A DNA stretch of 64,000 bases. It comes from a virus. The notes under the pieces are model-generated. The model made no database searches, had not been told where the DNA came from, and saw nothing but the letters and a program-made list of their open reading frames with translations. This document shows, in pieces, positions 16,564-60,641 of this stretch (position 1 is the stretch's first letter; each line of letters starts with the position of its first letter). The stretch is from positions 16,257 through 80,256 of the IMG/VR virus record IMGVR_UViG_3300043411_000704. One strand, 5' to 3'. Both the position numbers and the translations under genes were made by a program.

Positions 16564-17367
16564 TCAAATTTTTCCTAAATATTTTTTAATCAGTTTTTTA
16601 TTGTTTGTTGTAAAATCCGGTGTCATATCAACATAATTTATCTTTTTATTATTTTTATGTAATAAAATGAAAGGACTATGACTGACCATGATCACCTGGA
16701 AGTATTTGGCAAGTTCGTCCAGAGTATCAAACAATTCAAGTTGTTTTTCAAGTGAAAGTGCTTTTTCTGGTTCATCCAATAGGACAGTCATAGGTCCAGT
16801 TCGTGGTAAACTATTGATATAATTAACTTCAAATTGGGCGATTGCTCGTTCTTCGGGCGATATAATATTTTCAGGCACGTTGGTCAAACTTGGGGGGTTT
16901 TGTAACATTTGCATGATCTTATTAATCTTAGTTATCCTATACTGTCCTGAACTAGGTTTGGACGCCATTACATCCATTTGTTCGGCTTCTGTAGAAATAC
17001 CGTCTGATGATTGATCAGGGTTTATAAACCATGTCATATCATTCTTCCCCATTTGGTCTGAATCGTTGTAAAAAGTTGGTGTGCCGTCCCATTCAATGAC
17101 CGCATGAGATTTACCCGGTGCATATACATGATAGCAAAACGGATAGTGTGACTGATATTGGGACCCAATTTTTGACGGTTCAGAAATTCGGGAAAATCCA
17201 CCTTTATCAATACCACAATATGCGGCCAGTGTTTTTAATAAAGATGTTTTGTTTGTTCCATTCCCACCAACAATCACATTCAATCCTGGTTTGAACTCAA
17301 ATATTCGATCTTTAATGTTGGGATTATTCATCATAAATCCCGATTTAATCATTGCTCGTTTAATCAT
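16564..17367 (-). CDS. ABC/AAA-type P-loop ATPase (RecF/OLD-like small ATPase)
   Basis: A 267-aa protein with Walker A GGNGTNKTS (residues 34-42), Walker B TVLLDEPEKAL (about 190) and a switch/H-loop VIMVSHSPFIL (about 225). This is the ATP-binding head of the RecF/SMC/OLD group with no inserted coiled coil, too short to be gp46. ATG 17367 is preferred because it overlaps the preceding stop by 8 nt; an upstream in-frame ATG lies within that gene. It follows two unknown genes with coiled-coil character, suggesting a multi-subunit complex acting on DNA or in phage defence, but this is inference. Confidence 0.75.
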   Translation of the reverse strand: MIKRAMIKSGFMMNNPNIKDRIFEFKPGLNVIVGGNGTNKTSLLKTLAAYCGIDKGGFSRISEPSKIGSQYQSHYPFCYHVYAPGKSHAVIEWDGTPTFYNDSDQMGKNDMTWFINPDQSSDGISTEAEQMDVMASKPSSGQYRITKINKIMQMLQNPPSLTNVPENIISPEERAIAQFEVNYINSLPRTGPMTVLLDEPEKALSLEKQLELFDTLDELAKYFQVIMVSHSPFILLHKNNKKINYVDMTPDFTTNNKKLIKKYLGKI

Positions 17368-18802
17368 TTTTAGGTAGATCCTTACCAATTTTTCGCCAGT
17401 CAACGAATGCATTTTTATATAAATCGGACAATTTTACTTCTTTTTCGTCAAATTGGAAGTTGGTAATACTAAAATTTGGACGATTGTTCTTAATCGGGGT
17501 AGGATTATATAGTTTCAACAGACTTTGTGGATTCGCTATGAATTGAGATTTAATCGTTTCTGCTAATTCTTTATTATCTACAGTTCCTACAATTATAGTA
17601 TCTGCTTTGCCAAAAAGCCTAGCACTAATAGTCCATTTACCATTCACTTCTTCAAGTTTAATATCAAACTTATATGCAAATGTTGGATCGACTTCAAGTA
17701 ACTTTTTATAGTTACTTTTAAATGTCGATCTCAGTCTACCAATGTCTAAATAACGACTAAAATCAACTACATCAACTTCAGGTGTCGGACATTCGTCTAA
17801 TATTTTGGTATTGGCATCAATGATATATGCACACTCCAATTCAAATTCCCAATCAGCATGATCTCTATTAATTGCCAAAATCTTATCTGATCCTGGACAA
17901 GTTAGATATAACATTTTAGATTCGTCCATGATATTTTCTGCTATAATAGTGGTCGTCAAATGTGACAACTTTCCGAACCGTGATCCAATAAAACTATATA
18001 ATTGATCTACTGTTGTGAATTCCATGTCCGAACCTACGTGATAGGTTCCTGATAGATTTAACAAGTCAATCTCATATGCTGCATTGAATCGCAGATCTGT
18101 TAGATTTTTAAATATTTCCTTCAGTTGTTTGAAATCCAGAGCGATAACATCTTTCTTGTTATCTGTTGGTTGAATAACGTAAAAACCCTGTTTCACATCG
18201 TAAAATTGTATAAACGGAACTACATATTTCTTCAAATATTCTTCTTTTTCCTGTGCAATCTTTTTAGTATTTTCCGCATCAAGTTCAGCCTTCTTTATAA
18301 GAAAGTGTTTTTCTTGCTCATATGCTTCTTGTTCTCTACGAGAATATTCAGATAATGCATTTCCACATGCTTTGATTGAATCAGATAAAACCAACTTTTC
18401 AACCAAAAATTCACTCTGTGGTATAACTTTAATATTAATTGGTATTACTGGATTAATTTTGTCATAACCTGATTTTTTTGATGGCATAATTCCACCTAAT
18501 TGTAATGAAGATTGATTTCCTAGTCTAGTTCTAAAGTAATCATTTGTCGATTCAACTACTTCACTGATTTCTTTGTTAATTTCTTGGACTACTGTATTTC
18601 TAGTATCCAGCCAAGCACTATATTCAGTTTTTAATTCTTCACTCAATTTTGTTGGTTTATTGATGAATTCATGTAAAAATTCCTTATATGTTCGTTCTCT
18701 GACATCAACATATTCTACTGTCGGGGTCTTTGATGATGATTCAAAATGTGCTAATAATTTCGTAACACCATTACTATCGGTTAATTCTATTGTTTTTTCC
18801 AT
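17360..18802 (-). CDS. Hypothetical coiled-coil protein, 480 aa
   Basis: Residues about 35-95 are helical. A strongly charged coiled coil (EQEKHFLIKKAELDAENTKK region, about 160-200) is followed by a large alpha/beta C-terminal half ending FVDWRKIGKDLPKND. No membrane segment or known motif is visible. The downstream gene is a P-loop ATPase starting inside this gene's stop region, so the two products are probably made in a fixed ratio and may interact. Function unknown. Confidence 0.6.
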   Translation of the reverse strand: MEKTIELTDSNGVTKLLAHFESSSKTPTVEYVDVRERTYKEFLHEFINKPTKLSEELKTEYSAWLDTRNTVVQEINKEISEVVESTNDYFRTRLGNQSSLQLGGIMPSKKSGYDKINPVIPINIKVIPQSEFLVEKLVLSDSIKACGNALSEYSRREQEAYEQEKHFLIKKAELDAENTKKIAQEKEEYLKKYVVPFIQFYDVKQGFYVIQPTDNKKDVIALDFKQLKEIFKNLTDLRFNAAYEIDLLNLSGTYHVGSDMEFTTVDQLYSFIGSRFGKLSHLTTTIIAENIMDESKMLYLTCPGSDKILAINRDHADWEFELECAYIIDANTKILDECPTPEVDVVDFSRYLDIGRLRSTFKSNYKKLLEVDPTFAYKFDIKLEEVNGKWTISARLFGKADTIIVGTVDNKELAETIKSQFIANPQSLLKLYNPTPIKNNRPNFSITNFQFDEKEVKLSDLYKNAFVDWRKIGKDLPKND

Positions 18803-18828: not shown

Positions 18829-19434
18829 TTACATTAATTCTTTTGCTTGCTCAAACTCAGATTCATCAACTCCTTCCATACTGAAGTTTAATTTACTCAT
18901 TACATCATCCATTTCAAAAATACCGGTTGATACAGGTCGGTCAATTCGTGCCTGCCAATTATGCCATTGAAAATAACTAATTCGGTTATCAAATTCTGTC
19001 ATGTCACCAACAGGTCGCTCTTTAATAAACGTAAAATTAGATTCAACTATTTTTACATATTCAGCCGCATTATCTTGATCCATATTAATCACAACCAAAA
19101 AATGTTGGTCGTCGTGACCAACATCAAATGTTCTAAAATTTAATTGTGGTTTAGTATCTGGCACTTTTAACTGCGGAACTTCTTGATCCGCAATTTTATA
19201 ACTTTGTCCAAACCCCGGTTCTGAGATTTCAGCATTGACCTGTGATACTGAGTTCTTATATTCTTCCAGACCTTTAGATATATATTCTGCCGCATTTAAT
19301 GCCATTTCGGTATCACCTTTTACTGGACTGTTCAACACTACGGTATGTTTCCATAGTTCCATATCTGGGACATCAGACAATCCGATCTCCATTTTCAATT
19401 TCTGTTTAATAGTTTCTTCGTCAAACTTGATCAT
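18829..19434 (-). CDS. Hypothetical protein, first gene of the ATPase unit
   Basis: A 201-aa, acidic, soluble protein (ends EFEQAKELM). The N-terminus IKFDEETIKQKL is not the MTxKFD leader, because it lacks the spacing. A strand-rich central part (FLVVINMDQDN) suggests an alpha/beta domain. It has its own early-type promoter, whose -35 lies in the palindrome of the upstream terminator. It leads the unit of this gene, the 480-aa coiled-coil gene, the ATPase and the 73-aa gene. Confidence 0.6.
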   Translation of the reverse strand: MIKFDEETIKQKLKMEIGLSDVPDMELWKHTVVLNSPVKGDTEMALNAAEYISKGLEEYKNSVSQVNAEISEPGFGQSYKIADQEVPQLKVPDTKPQLNFRTFDVGHDDQHFLVVINMDQDNAAEYVKIVESNFTFIKERPVGDMTEFDNRISYFQWHNWQARIDRPVSTGIFEMDDVMSKLNFSMEGVDESEFEQAKELM

Positions 19435-19439
19435 GTTCT

Positions 19440-19468
19440 ATATTAAACCATAAAAAAACCGATTTCAA
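19440..19468 (-). promoter_or_regulatory. Early-type promoter embedded in a terminator palindrome
   Basis: Minus-strand TTGAAA (19468-19463), 17-bp spacer, TAATAT (19445-19440), 5 nt to the ATG at 19434. The -35 lies in the right half of the terminator stem at 19457-19488, so termination and re-initiation are physically coupled. Confidence 0.5.
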
Positions 19469-19488
19469 CTAATTAGTTGAAATCGGTT
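19451..19488 (-). terminator. Strong terminator after the candidate ncRNA
   Basis: A perfect palindrome AACCGATTTCAACTAA/TTAGTTGAAATCGGTT (19457-19488), followed on the minus strand by a run of T (19458-19452). It closes the transcript that covers the structured stretch at 19.5-19.7 kb. Confidence 0.8.
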
Positions 19489-19703
19489 CAAGTTTCCTAT
19501 TCAAAGAGTTATGTAGACAAAATCTAAAACAAAATCAAAGACGCCATTTTTCTCAAAGACCTAATCAAAATCAAAGACTGGTAATCAATAAATTCCGAAA
19601 AATGGCCGATAGTTGTTAGTGGATTACCACCATTTTATTTCATTCCAAGAAAGCGCTCTATCCAGAGCAAGGTTTTGTATTTTTATGTTCTTTGAATAGG
19701 AAT
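19457..19703 (-). ncRNA. Candidate structured RNA with pseudoknot
   Basis: A 300-nt non-coding gap. A 14-bp closing helix pairs TTCCTATTCAAAGA (19494-19507) with TCTTTGAATAGGAA (19689-19702). Inside are a GCTCT/AGAGC hairpin (19655-19668) and two interleaved helices: GCCATTTTTC (19543-19552) with GAAAAATGGC (19597-19606), and TGGTAATC (19579-19586) with GATTACCA (19622-19629). The interleaving means a pseudoknot. Minus-strand GTCTTTGA occurs three times. An intrinsic terminator follows immediately on the minus strand, which sets the direction. It may be transcribed by read-through of the terminator at 19706 or processed from it; no good promoter of its own is seen. Confidence 0.6.
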
Positions 19704-19705
19704 AA

Positions 19706-19733
19706 AGAAAAACTGGTTAGCCAAATTAACCAA
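19706..19733 (-). terminator. Terminator after the gene at 19753
   Basis: On the minus strand TGGTTA (19732-19727), a 7-nt loop, TAACCA (19719-19714), then GTTTTTC. It lies 20 bp after the stop of the 19753-20709 gene. The short stem may allow read-through into the structured RNA. Confidence 0.6.
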
Positions 19734-19752
19734 CCGAATTTTTCACCTTAAA

Positions 19753-20709
19753 TTATTTACCTAGATTATCAATTTCCTGATAAATGTCTGCCAGTGCATT
19801 AGGAATCACAATTTTATATGCCGAGACTTCTCTAATCTTCTCCAGACGACGAGTTTGAAGAACTGAATTCAGGGATTCTAATTCATTCTGATATTTCTGG
19901 AATCGCATATTATATTCTCGCGAAATAGTATCAAACTCATTACTAGCTTTAACGGATGCTAGGGTAAATTCCCTTTGTAGTTCTGCATTCTTTTCAGTTA
20001 CCCGATTCTGAATACGTGCCTTATATGAATTCAACTTAGATTCATATTCCCGATGTTTGGCTTGAAGATCAAAATATTCCTTATTAATTCGATCTTGGTC
20101 GAAATTAGACTTTGCAAACATCGGAATCTCTGTTTGCTGTCCATTTTGAAGAATCTTATGGAATCCCACGACTGGCCCACCAGCAAGATCATTCTTGATG
20201 TTAGACATCACACCACCCGTATGGATATACTTCCCTATATGGGAAGCCTGTGCCTCTAGCGCATAATATTCGGCTCTTTCTGCAATGGAAAGTTCACCAA
20301 CCGCATCGGTTTCAGTCCATGCCTTGACACCAAGAGGTTTATTAAACACTGGTGCGGTCTCTGTGAATTCTGGAATCTTTTCCTCATCAGTAAGAAATTC
20401 AGATGCATCGCATGTTCGATAAAACTCTAGTAATGTTGTCTTTGCCTTAATTGCTTCTTTAAGCCATGCAGACAGTGCAAAATATCGTCCTTCCTTTGTC
20501 CAATCATCAACCTCAACTTGAGTCGAGGTCGTAACCCAATGGGGCTTGCCATCAAGGACCACATTATAGTTAAATGCTCTTGCACCAGAAAGGCGTTTAC
20601 TAATGATCGTGTTTTGTTCCTTCAACAAATTACTAATATGATTAGCATGTGAAGATGAAATTCCTTCTTTTGCGAAGAAAACTAGATTGTGTTTTTGGTT
20701 TGTTTTCAT
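19753..20709 (-). CDS. Hypothetical protein, single-gene early unit
   Basis: A 318-aa protein. The first half is globular (WVTTSTQVEVDDW; YFALSAWLKEAIKAKTTLLE). Residues about 215-300 form a long coiled coil (EYFDLQAKHREYESKLN to NELESLNSVLQTRR). It has the best consensus promoter of the window (TTGACA-17-TATAAT) and its own terminator, so it should be abundant early. No catalytic motif is recognised. Confidence 0.65.
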   Translation of the reverse strand: MKTNQKHNLVFFAKEGISSSHANHISNLLKEQNTIISKRLSGARAFNYNVVLDGKPHWVTTSTQVEVDDWTKEGRYFALSAWLKEAIKAKTTLLEFYRTCDASEFLTDEEKIPEFTETAPVFNKPLGVKAWTETDAVGELSIAERAEYYALEAQASHIGKYIHTGGVMSNIKNDLAGGPVVGFHKILQNGQQTEIPMFAKSNFDQDRINKEYFDLQAKHREYESKLNSYKARIQNRVTEKNAELQREFTLASVKASNEFDTISREYNMRFQKYQNELESLNSVLQTRRLEKIREVSAYKIVIPNALADIYQEIDNLGK

Positions 20710-20718
20710 AAGTTATTG

Positions 20719-20747
20719 ATTATAGTCTATGTGTTTTAGTGTGTCAA
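20719..20747 (-). promoter_or_regulatory. Consensus sigma70-type promoter
   Basis: Minus-strand TTGACA (20747-20742), 17-bp spacer, TATAAT (20724-20719); both hexamers match the bacterial consensus exactly. Nine nt separate it from the ATG at 20709, leaving at most a 2-3-nt leader. Confidence 0.85.
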
Positions 20748-59823: not shown

Positions 59824-60641
59824 TTTAGAAACAAAACGGGTGATAGTTCTACTTCACCTGTGTATTCTATATCATTAATCGTAACTTTAATTTGATTGAT
59901 TTTTGTGAGTTGTTTGCCGAACACAGTATCTATTTTGGTAGTAATTTGGTTGAATACTGATGCCGGTAGTGCTTCAGTTATAGCAAGTCTATCAGCGATT
60001 TTTTTATCAACTAAATCTATTATTTGATCCCCTATTTTAACTTGCTTAACATATTGGGCCACCGCATTAATGAACATTGGTGCAAATAATGATTTGATAG
60101 AGTCCACGTTTTTCTGATCAAGTCCTTGAATACGAGTTTTATATAAATTGTTTTCAAATTGATATTCTTCTTCTATCGAAGGATAGTTCAGCACCACTTT
60201 GTATTGTTCGTTACCAACCTCAACATCAGTAAATGACAATTTCATTTTTTTAATTTTGTTCAGCAATGCCGGTATTTCAACCGTGGTCGTGGTATCTCCT
60301 TTTTCAGACCTTACATGCACAACTAATTCCGAACTAATATTTTTTGATCGTAGTTCTAATAGTAAAACTACTTTATCCAAGATATTTAGATATGCTAATG
60401 ATATACTTGGGTCTTTGATTTCGTTCAAGACATTATACATCATCAGTGTGAAATGATTTGGGGAAAACACACCTTCTAGTGCAGATTTTGCAATATTTTT
60501 GGTATGAGTCGCATTAAGAGACTTAATATGTATTTCTTTGCCAAGTGATGGAATATAAACATCTTGCTCTAATTTCTTATTAGTGTCCGCAATAAGAGAA
60601 AGAATATCTTTTACTTCCATAGGTTTTTCATTTTCAGCCAT
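59820..60641 (-). CDS. Baseplate hub assembly protein, gp26/gp51 family (member 1)
   Basis: A 273-aa protein. ATG 60641 is chosen because TAAATA lies 7 nt upstream; a TTG 6 nt further up is less likely. The N-terminal YIPSLGKEIHIKSLNATHTK-type block and the middle (FTLMMYNVLNEIKDP; LNILDKVVLLLELRSKNI) match the T4 baseplate-family fold shared by gp26 and gp51. These act in hub assembly in T4 and may not remain in the virion. A related gene follows at 60673. Confidence 0.6.
   Translation of the reverse strand: MAENEKPMEVKDILSLIADTNKKLEQDVYIPSLGKEIHIKSLNATHTKNIAKSALEGVFSPNHFTLMMYNVLNEIKDPSISLAYLNILDKVVLLLELRSKNISSELVVHVRSEKGDTTTTVEIPALLNKIKKMKLSFTDVEVGNEQYKVVLNYPSIEEEYQFENNLYKTRIQGLDQKNVDSIKSLFAPMFINAVAQYVKQVKIGDQIIDLVDKKIADRLAITEALPASVFNQITTKIDTVFGKQLTKINQIKVTINDIEYTGEVELSPVLFLN

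Follow-up and report, generated by a model that had tools for sequence, protein, structure and literature searches.

A gene-free stretch of a phage genome raises the question of whether it encodes a structured RNA and, if so, what that RNA works with. The stretch lies in a window of 64,000 nucleotides, the whole of the DNA analyzed, which covers bases 16257-80256 of an 80,256-base IMG/VR virus record and supplies the coordinates used below unless a locus is named. It forms a 318-nt minus-strand gap (19435-19752) directly 3' of the gene for a protein here called P4. A preliminary description based on the window alone had proposed a candidate structured noncoding RNA at this place, with a 14-bp closing helix, a hairpin, helices of 10 and 8 bp, three copies of GTCTTTGA and a strong terminator. 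The minus strand carries all of these elements where they had been placed. The features, read 5' to 3' along the minus strand, are as follows.

20719-20747, minus strand: consensus sigma-70-type promoter of P4, TTGACA-17-TATAAT; presumed to serve the RNA by read-through
19753-20709, minus strand: P4 gene (318-amino-acid protein), directly 5' of the RNA
19715-19735, minus strand: P0 position, a weaker terminator-like hairpin (GGTTGGTTAATTTGGCTAACC and a T-rich stretch) after the P4 stop codon
19689-19702, minus strand: 5' strand of P1, the 14-bp closing helix
19655-19668, minus strand: hairpin GCTCTGGATAGAGC, inside the variable domain
19622-19629, minus strand: 5' strand of the 8-bp pseudoknot helix, unconserved among relatives
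19619-19630, minus strand: alternative local hairpin GTGGTAATCCAC, which takes in the 5' strand of the pseudoknot helix
19597-19606, minus strand: 5' strand of P2, GCCATTTTTC, 10 bp
19579-19586, minus strand: 3' strand of the 8-bp pseudoknot helix, adjoining array A; relatives have the 3' side of the P3 hairpin there
19555-19578, minus strand: hexamer array A, GTCTTT GATTTT GATTAG GTCTTT
19543-19552, minus strand: 3' strand of P2, GAAAAATGGC, immediately followed by array B
19519-19542, minus strand: hexamer array B, GTCTTT GATTTT GTTTTA GATTTT
19494-19507, minus strand: 3' strand of P1
19452-19489, minus strand: intrinsic terminator closing the RNA, 15-bp stem and T-run
18829-19434: next gene beyond the gap (201-amino-acid product)

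Helices and repeats of the window RNA

The closing helix P1 pairs TTCCTATTCAAAGA with TCTTTGAATAGGAA over 14 bp, and the terminator follows it. P2 joins GCCATTTTTC to GAAAAATGGC through ten pairs, all of them standard, and abuts array B, while the 8-bp helix TGGTAATC/GATTACCA is interleaved with it. The three copies of GTCTTTGA are hexamers of the two arrays. The preliminary description had counted these copies correctly but had missed the arrays and their 6-nt period, which are the most distinctive feature of the RNA. The local hairpin P3 was not found before array A in the window, where the strand can pair 5' of P2 instead. The promoter upstream of P4 (20747-20719) matches the full consensus, as had been noted, and the earlier idea of a terminator-bounded RNA that could be reached by read-through from this gene is supported, with co-transcription as the presumed route.

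When folded, the minus strand scored a z of -6.4 against shuffled sequence, with none of 200 shuffles as good, a score to which the terminator hairpin adds. Dinucleotide shuffles of the region from P1 to P1' produced a helix of at least 14 Watson-Crick pairs once in 500, one of at least 10 pairs in 34, one of at least 8 pairs in 245, and three helices of at least 8 pairs in 21. Based on these counts, the 14-bp helix is significant alone and the 10-bp helix weakly so. The 8-bp helix is at chance level in such AT-rich sequence. The claim that perfect helices would be unlikely by chance thus stands for the closing helix, weakly for the 10-bp helix, and not for the 8-bp helix. The repeats also exceed chance.

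A common RNA downstream of P4

Neither blastn in phages nor scans for close relatives through P4, helicase and DNA polymerase found a direct relative of the window phage, and the flanking genes at 17360-18802 and 18829-19434 are without phage homologue. As the phage has no close relative in the phage collection, the helices of the window were tested through distant members only. It is itself distant, carrying a T4-like family-B DNA polymerase along with DnaB-like and Dda-like helicases. The relatives of its genes are found in Bacteroidales and their phages and point to a host in this order. The perfect TTGACA/TATAAT pair, however, is not known as a promoter of the Bacteroidales type, these bacteria and their phages using other promoter sequences, so the host of the window phage may lie elsewhere.

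The link to the upstream P4 gene was absent from the preliminary description and was found through the relatives. Alignment of the first two P4 sequences opened the family, giving 16 and later 22 IMG/VR loci. Homologues of P4 are now known from about 24 phage records and from 48 contigs of bacterial genome assemblies. The bacterial loci belong almost entirely to Bacteroidales, and among them are cultured Muribaculaceae isolates as well as Prevotella sp. 885. A full-length homologue (32%) occurs in bajarodcaudo virus 1, and a human-gut contig carries a partial homologue. Annotation divides the major capsid gene of bajarodcaudo virus 1 into four pieces, separated by intron endonucleases (L022:20068-24155; PQ006092.1).

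P4 relatives are only 23-33% identical to the window P4, and the RNA is still directly downstream in nearly all of them. In almost every relative, the P4 stop codon is followed by a gap with a common layout. The RNA starts a few nucleotides past the stop codon, where P0, the P1 5' strand, a variable domain, the P2 5' strand and P3 are followed by array A, the P2 3' strand, array B, the P1 3' strand and a U-run. P0 takes the form helix-RCUGA-stem-GAAA-helix in 15 of 64 loci, many of them phages, where 0.21 would be expected; the P0 hairpin of the window differs from this form in sequence. Within the first 80 nt after the P4 stop, Bacteroidales loci (e.g., L056, L059, and L073) carry a different recurring P0 hairpin, CC-GATTA-GG, which apparently takes the place of the RCUGA/GAAA hairpin seen in phages. 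P3 is variable and is supported mainly in the Bacteroidales group, so it is not treated as a defining feature.

The preliminary description had named covariation in related phages as a check, and the letters of P1 and P2 do differ from genome to genome while pairing is restored. For P2, each of 42 loci was searched over the 110 nt preceding array A for a complement to the 10 nt before array B, with 1000 shuffles per locus. The pairing was supported over these loci at a Fisher p of 1.5e-31 and in the window alone at p 0.001, while two neighboring 10-mers used as controls gave p 0.21 and 0.95. The corresponding family-wide value for P1 was 2e-20. Swapping helix arms between loci proved too coarse a control, since related loci have P2 letters in common, and was dropped in favor of shuffling and the neighboring 10-mers. 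MAFFT over all members misaligned the P2 5' strands because the loop varies, and on the bacterial subset it aligned them. Applied unaided to 13 Bacteroidales loci, RNAalifold returned all ten P2 pairs and P3. Across these loci 93.5% of cells were paired, double changes occurred in 9 of 13 pairs, and double-changed cells numbered 29 compared with 10.0 in shuffles. None of 500 shuffles was equally high on any measure, and sliding the alignment by one column collapsed the signal.

The covariance model R1 was trained on 13 bacterial loci only, with no window or phage-database locus included. Its best match in the window is at 19519-19609 on the minus strand (25.4 bits, E 0.00029). Outside the training set R1 matched 39 of 52 sources at E <= 0.025, the window among them and 37 right after P4; the 39 are not a count of independent cases, because the 52 include sources that nearly duplicate each other. 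A weak second match in the window (60374-60434, E 0.02) contains GTCTTTGATTTCGTTCAAGAC hexamers, lies antisense to a gene and is probably due to chance, since its P2 pairs are broken.

These results bear on the explanation that the helices and repeats of the window fell together by chance in an AT-rich gap between two terminators. The shuffles lend it the commonness of an 8-bp helix and the fact that a 10-bp one is not very rare, but family-wide covariation makes it extremely improbable, as does the match in the window to R1, whose training loci all came from other genomes. On this comparative evidence, the window RNA is a genuine structured RNA, its family is a hitherto unnamed one common to gut phages and Bacteroidales chromosomes, and the earlier proposal of a structured noncoding RNA is borne out and strengthened by the relatives. 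The pseudoknot fared differently in its two halves. Its 10-bp helix is the conserved P2, rebuilt like P1 by compensating changes, but the interleaved 8-bp helix is unconserved and has no family-wide counterpart. As a family feature the pseudoknot was rejected: pairing of the strand that precedes array A with sequence 5' of P2 gave p 0.19 over the family and p 0.007 in the window alone, and several relatives have a local hairpin in its place.

Hexamer arrays, genomic context and the proposed role of P4

The hexamers follow the consensus G-N-Y-N-U-(U/C), written GNYNUU, and both arrays are present in the window. In most loci two runs of them flank the P2 3' strand, and array B starts at the exact end of P2. 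Array A holds two to four hexamers across the family, and array B mostly holds three to six in-phase units compared with about 1.3 in shuffled sequence. This chain length is the fairer test, as the letter counts are partly circular, the motif having picked the units. The spacing is regular, and positions 1, 3, 5, and 6 are fixed while 2 and 4 are free. Base pairing with a target would constrain positions 2 and 4 as well, so that repeated protein contacts fit this pattern better. The arrays are probably protein-binding sites. A small conserved protein encoded in the arrays was also considered and rejected, as EVLAF-like peptides can be read in several loci but the frames are not kept and many loci contain stops. 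Taken modulo 3, arrays A and B are offset by 0 in 8 loci, by 1 in 13 and by 2 in 21, and no open frame exists in 17 of the 42 loci; together these counts indicate that the RNA is non-coding. To our knowledge, six-nucleotide in-phase arrays set between covarying helices are an RNA design seen nowhere else.

P4 itself gives few clues. Pfam, PHROGs, NCBIfam, and PADLOC gave no family match beyond weak matches of single members, and no match was found among PDB sequences. The AlphaFold2 model is confident and mostly helical, with a 92-residue helix (pLDDT 85, pTM 0.81). A fold search with it returned no PDB match below E 0.1 and, in BFVD, one uncharacterized phage protein at E 5e-15. No recognizable RNA-binding or effector domain emerged from the family libraries or the PDB fold search. 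The strongly conserved parts of P4 are GLTSTSANHIANxAK, IAxLREAIK, GxxIHPxG, R220, N227, and IxIP. Longer P4 proteins of about 372-385 amino acids occur in L037, L078, L082, and L085.

The two components are rare and travel together. Among 295 genomes of the order, strong RNA matches occurred in three, all with P4, and three other matches (E 0.007-0.009) were at chance level. P4 was strong in 4 of 393 genomes, or about 1% of the order, one of the four being the center of the search. Of 13 records searched, 11 carried a single copy and two a tandem pair; the plasmids searched contained no P4. Tandem paralogue pairs with a divergent second copy were seen at L086:3968-6049, L088:4007-6101, and L089:1767-3670, and in L086 the RNA was not found. 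Bacterial cassettes sit among differing, mostly housekeeping genes. Nine bacterial loci have a WYL-domain-like regulator near P4, confirmed by Pfam in all five tested, and at a few loci the cassette has a type I specificity gene or candidate defense genes as neighbors. In the BrxR family, whose members are WYL regulators, about half are located with phage-defense systems (PMC9122601).

Phage cassettes are often near tRNA genes. One phage group carries an intact tRNA-Thr or tRNA-like pieces inside the P1-closed domain (L016:3904-3976, where the tRNA is intact; L015:3969-4021; L037:3310-3442; also L078, L082, and L085), and L037 has two stretches resembling YrlA. Rfam searches of 16 related loci returned only tRNAs and one pistol ribozyme, the latter at L010:612-674 (59 bits) on a phage contig with a P4-RNA cassette.

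Taken together, the window RNA and the upstream P4 seem likely to form a two-part cassette in which the RNA is the partner of P4 and the arrays are repeated binding sites. There is a good probability that P4 binds the arrays. Both would be expressed from one transcript running from the P4 promoter to the strong terminator, and the mature RNA would then act as the partner of P4. Its helices would hold both arrays single-stranded as evenly spaced sites, to which P4, or a protein working with it, may bind in several copies, in a manner like that of TRAP or CsrA on repeated triplets.

An alternative is a cis-acting element of the 3'-UTR, in which the hexamers of the P4 messenger are bound by P4 itself or by a host protein that tunes its stability or translation, with no separate RNA that has its own task. 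The start of the RNA a few nucleotides after the P4 stop and the failure to find a strong promoter of its own agree with this explanation. It is nevertheless unlikely, since the long closing helix, the terminator and the elaborate covarying core look like those of an independent RNA, the RNA lies upstream of the P4 pair in L088 and after the second paralogue in L089, and an intact tRNA is housed inside P1 in L016.

The arrays could instead act as a decoy for a host RNA-binding protein, such as an RRM protein of Bacteroidales of the RbpB type, with P4 merely sharing the transcript. The repeats are regular, U-rich and predicted to be single-stranded, and RbpB prefers single-stranded AU-rich sequence (PMC11697453). 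A decoy sits poorly with the close tie to P4, which is kept across great distances, and it makes less sense in chromosomes, where the family also occurs and the target would be the host's own protein; this explanation is accordingly rated quite improbable.

If P4 were a toxin, the RNA might restrain it by the logic of type III toxin-antitoxin systems, as the pairing of a gene with a repeat-bearing RNA, the patchy distribution and the WYL regulator would suggest. But the RNA is 3' of the gene, and the hexamers lie outside the helices and are not processed pseudoknot units. Furthermore, P4 was without a match of the ToxN, AbiQ, or CptN type in Pfam, PADLOC, and the PDB fold search, or to any other nuclease, and an antitoxin role is very unlikely.

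For the favored P4-RNA cassette, a particle acting in conflict between phage and host or between phages is a more tentative proposal, though one of some plausibility, because P4 is rare, mostly single-copy, scattered, phage-borne as well as bacterial, and accompanied by a WYL-type regulator at several loci. A new ribonucleoprotein system, in which the long-helix P4 assembles in register along the two hexamer arrays of its own RNA as a defense or counter-defense module spread between Bacteroidales chromosomes and phages, is possible but rather doubtful. The cultured carriers, the Muribaculaceae isolates and Prevotella sp. 885, make direct tests feasible.

Comparison with known RNA families and systems

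As the preliminary description had suggested, the RNA resembles no known family. Rfam 15 gave no family at the gathering threshold in the window, and relaxed searches of the RNA gave nothing relevant. ARAGORN and Rfam found no tRNA or tmRNA in the window RNA, and the FopS sRNA (RF04319) aligned with nothing but the P0 hairpin, at 22.2 bits against a threshold of 56 (E 0.3). The open-access papers searched contained nothing on the P4-RNA family, leaving aside the unnamed candidates of large microbiome RNA surveys such as PMC8040213. Both families are new relative to the libraries and open-access papers searched. An RNA and a protein that both lack a known family in these libraries stay together over very large distances.

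GOLLD, ROOL, and other large phage RNAs are likewise structured, carried by phages of gut bacteria and often near tRNA genes, but they span several hundred nucleotides, whereas the P4 RNA is 200-300 nt and has no Rfam match. The bacterial Y RNA YrlA shares the long closing helix and, in the phage group of L037, a tRNA-like module, L037 reaching 37.9 bits, below the threshold of 69. YrlA (RF02553) had no match in the window, no Ro/Rsr protein was found beside the P4 RNA, and most members are without the tRNA-like module. We know of no hexamer arrays in YrlA.

Retrons and type III ToxIN systems also combine a compact, scattered protein gene with a structured RNA in bacteria and phages. In contrast, the P4 cassette has no ToxN-like nuclease, and no reverse transcriptase was found among the window neighbors or the conserved neighbors of relatives. 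Its RNA is 3' of the gene, and its repeats are hexamers outside the helices. A likeness in design also exists to the trp leader bound by TRAP and to CsrB and RsmZ bound by CsrA, in which a short motif recurs at regular spacing in unpaired RNA. The motifs differ, GNYNUU with a 6-nt period in the P4 RNA and (G/U)AG or GGA in the others, but the shared regular spacing suggests binding by an oligomeric protein, and in-phase arrays between covarying helices point to ordered, multi-copy protein binding as the candidate function.
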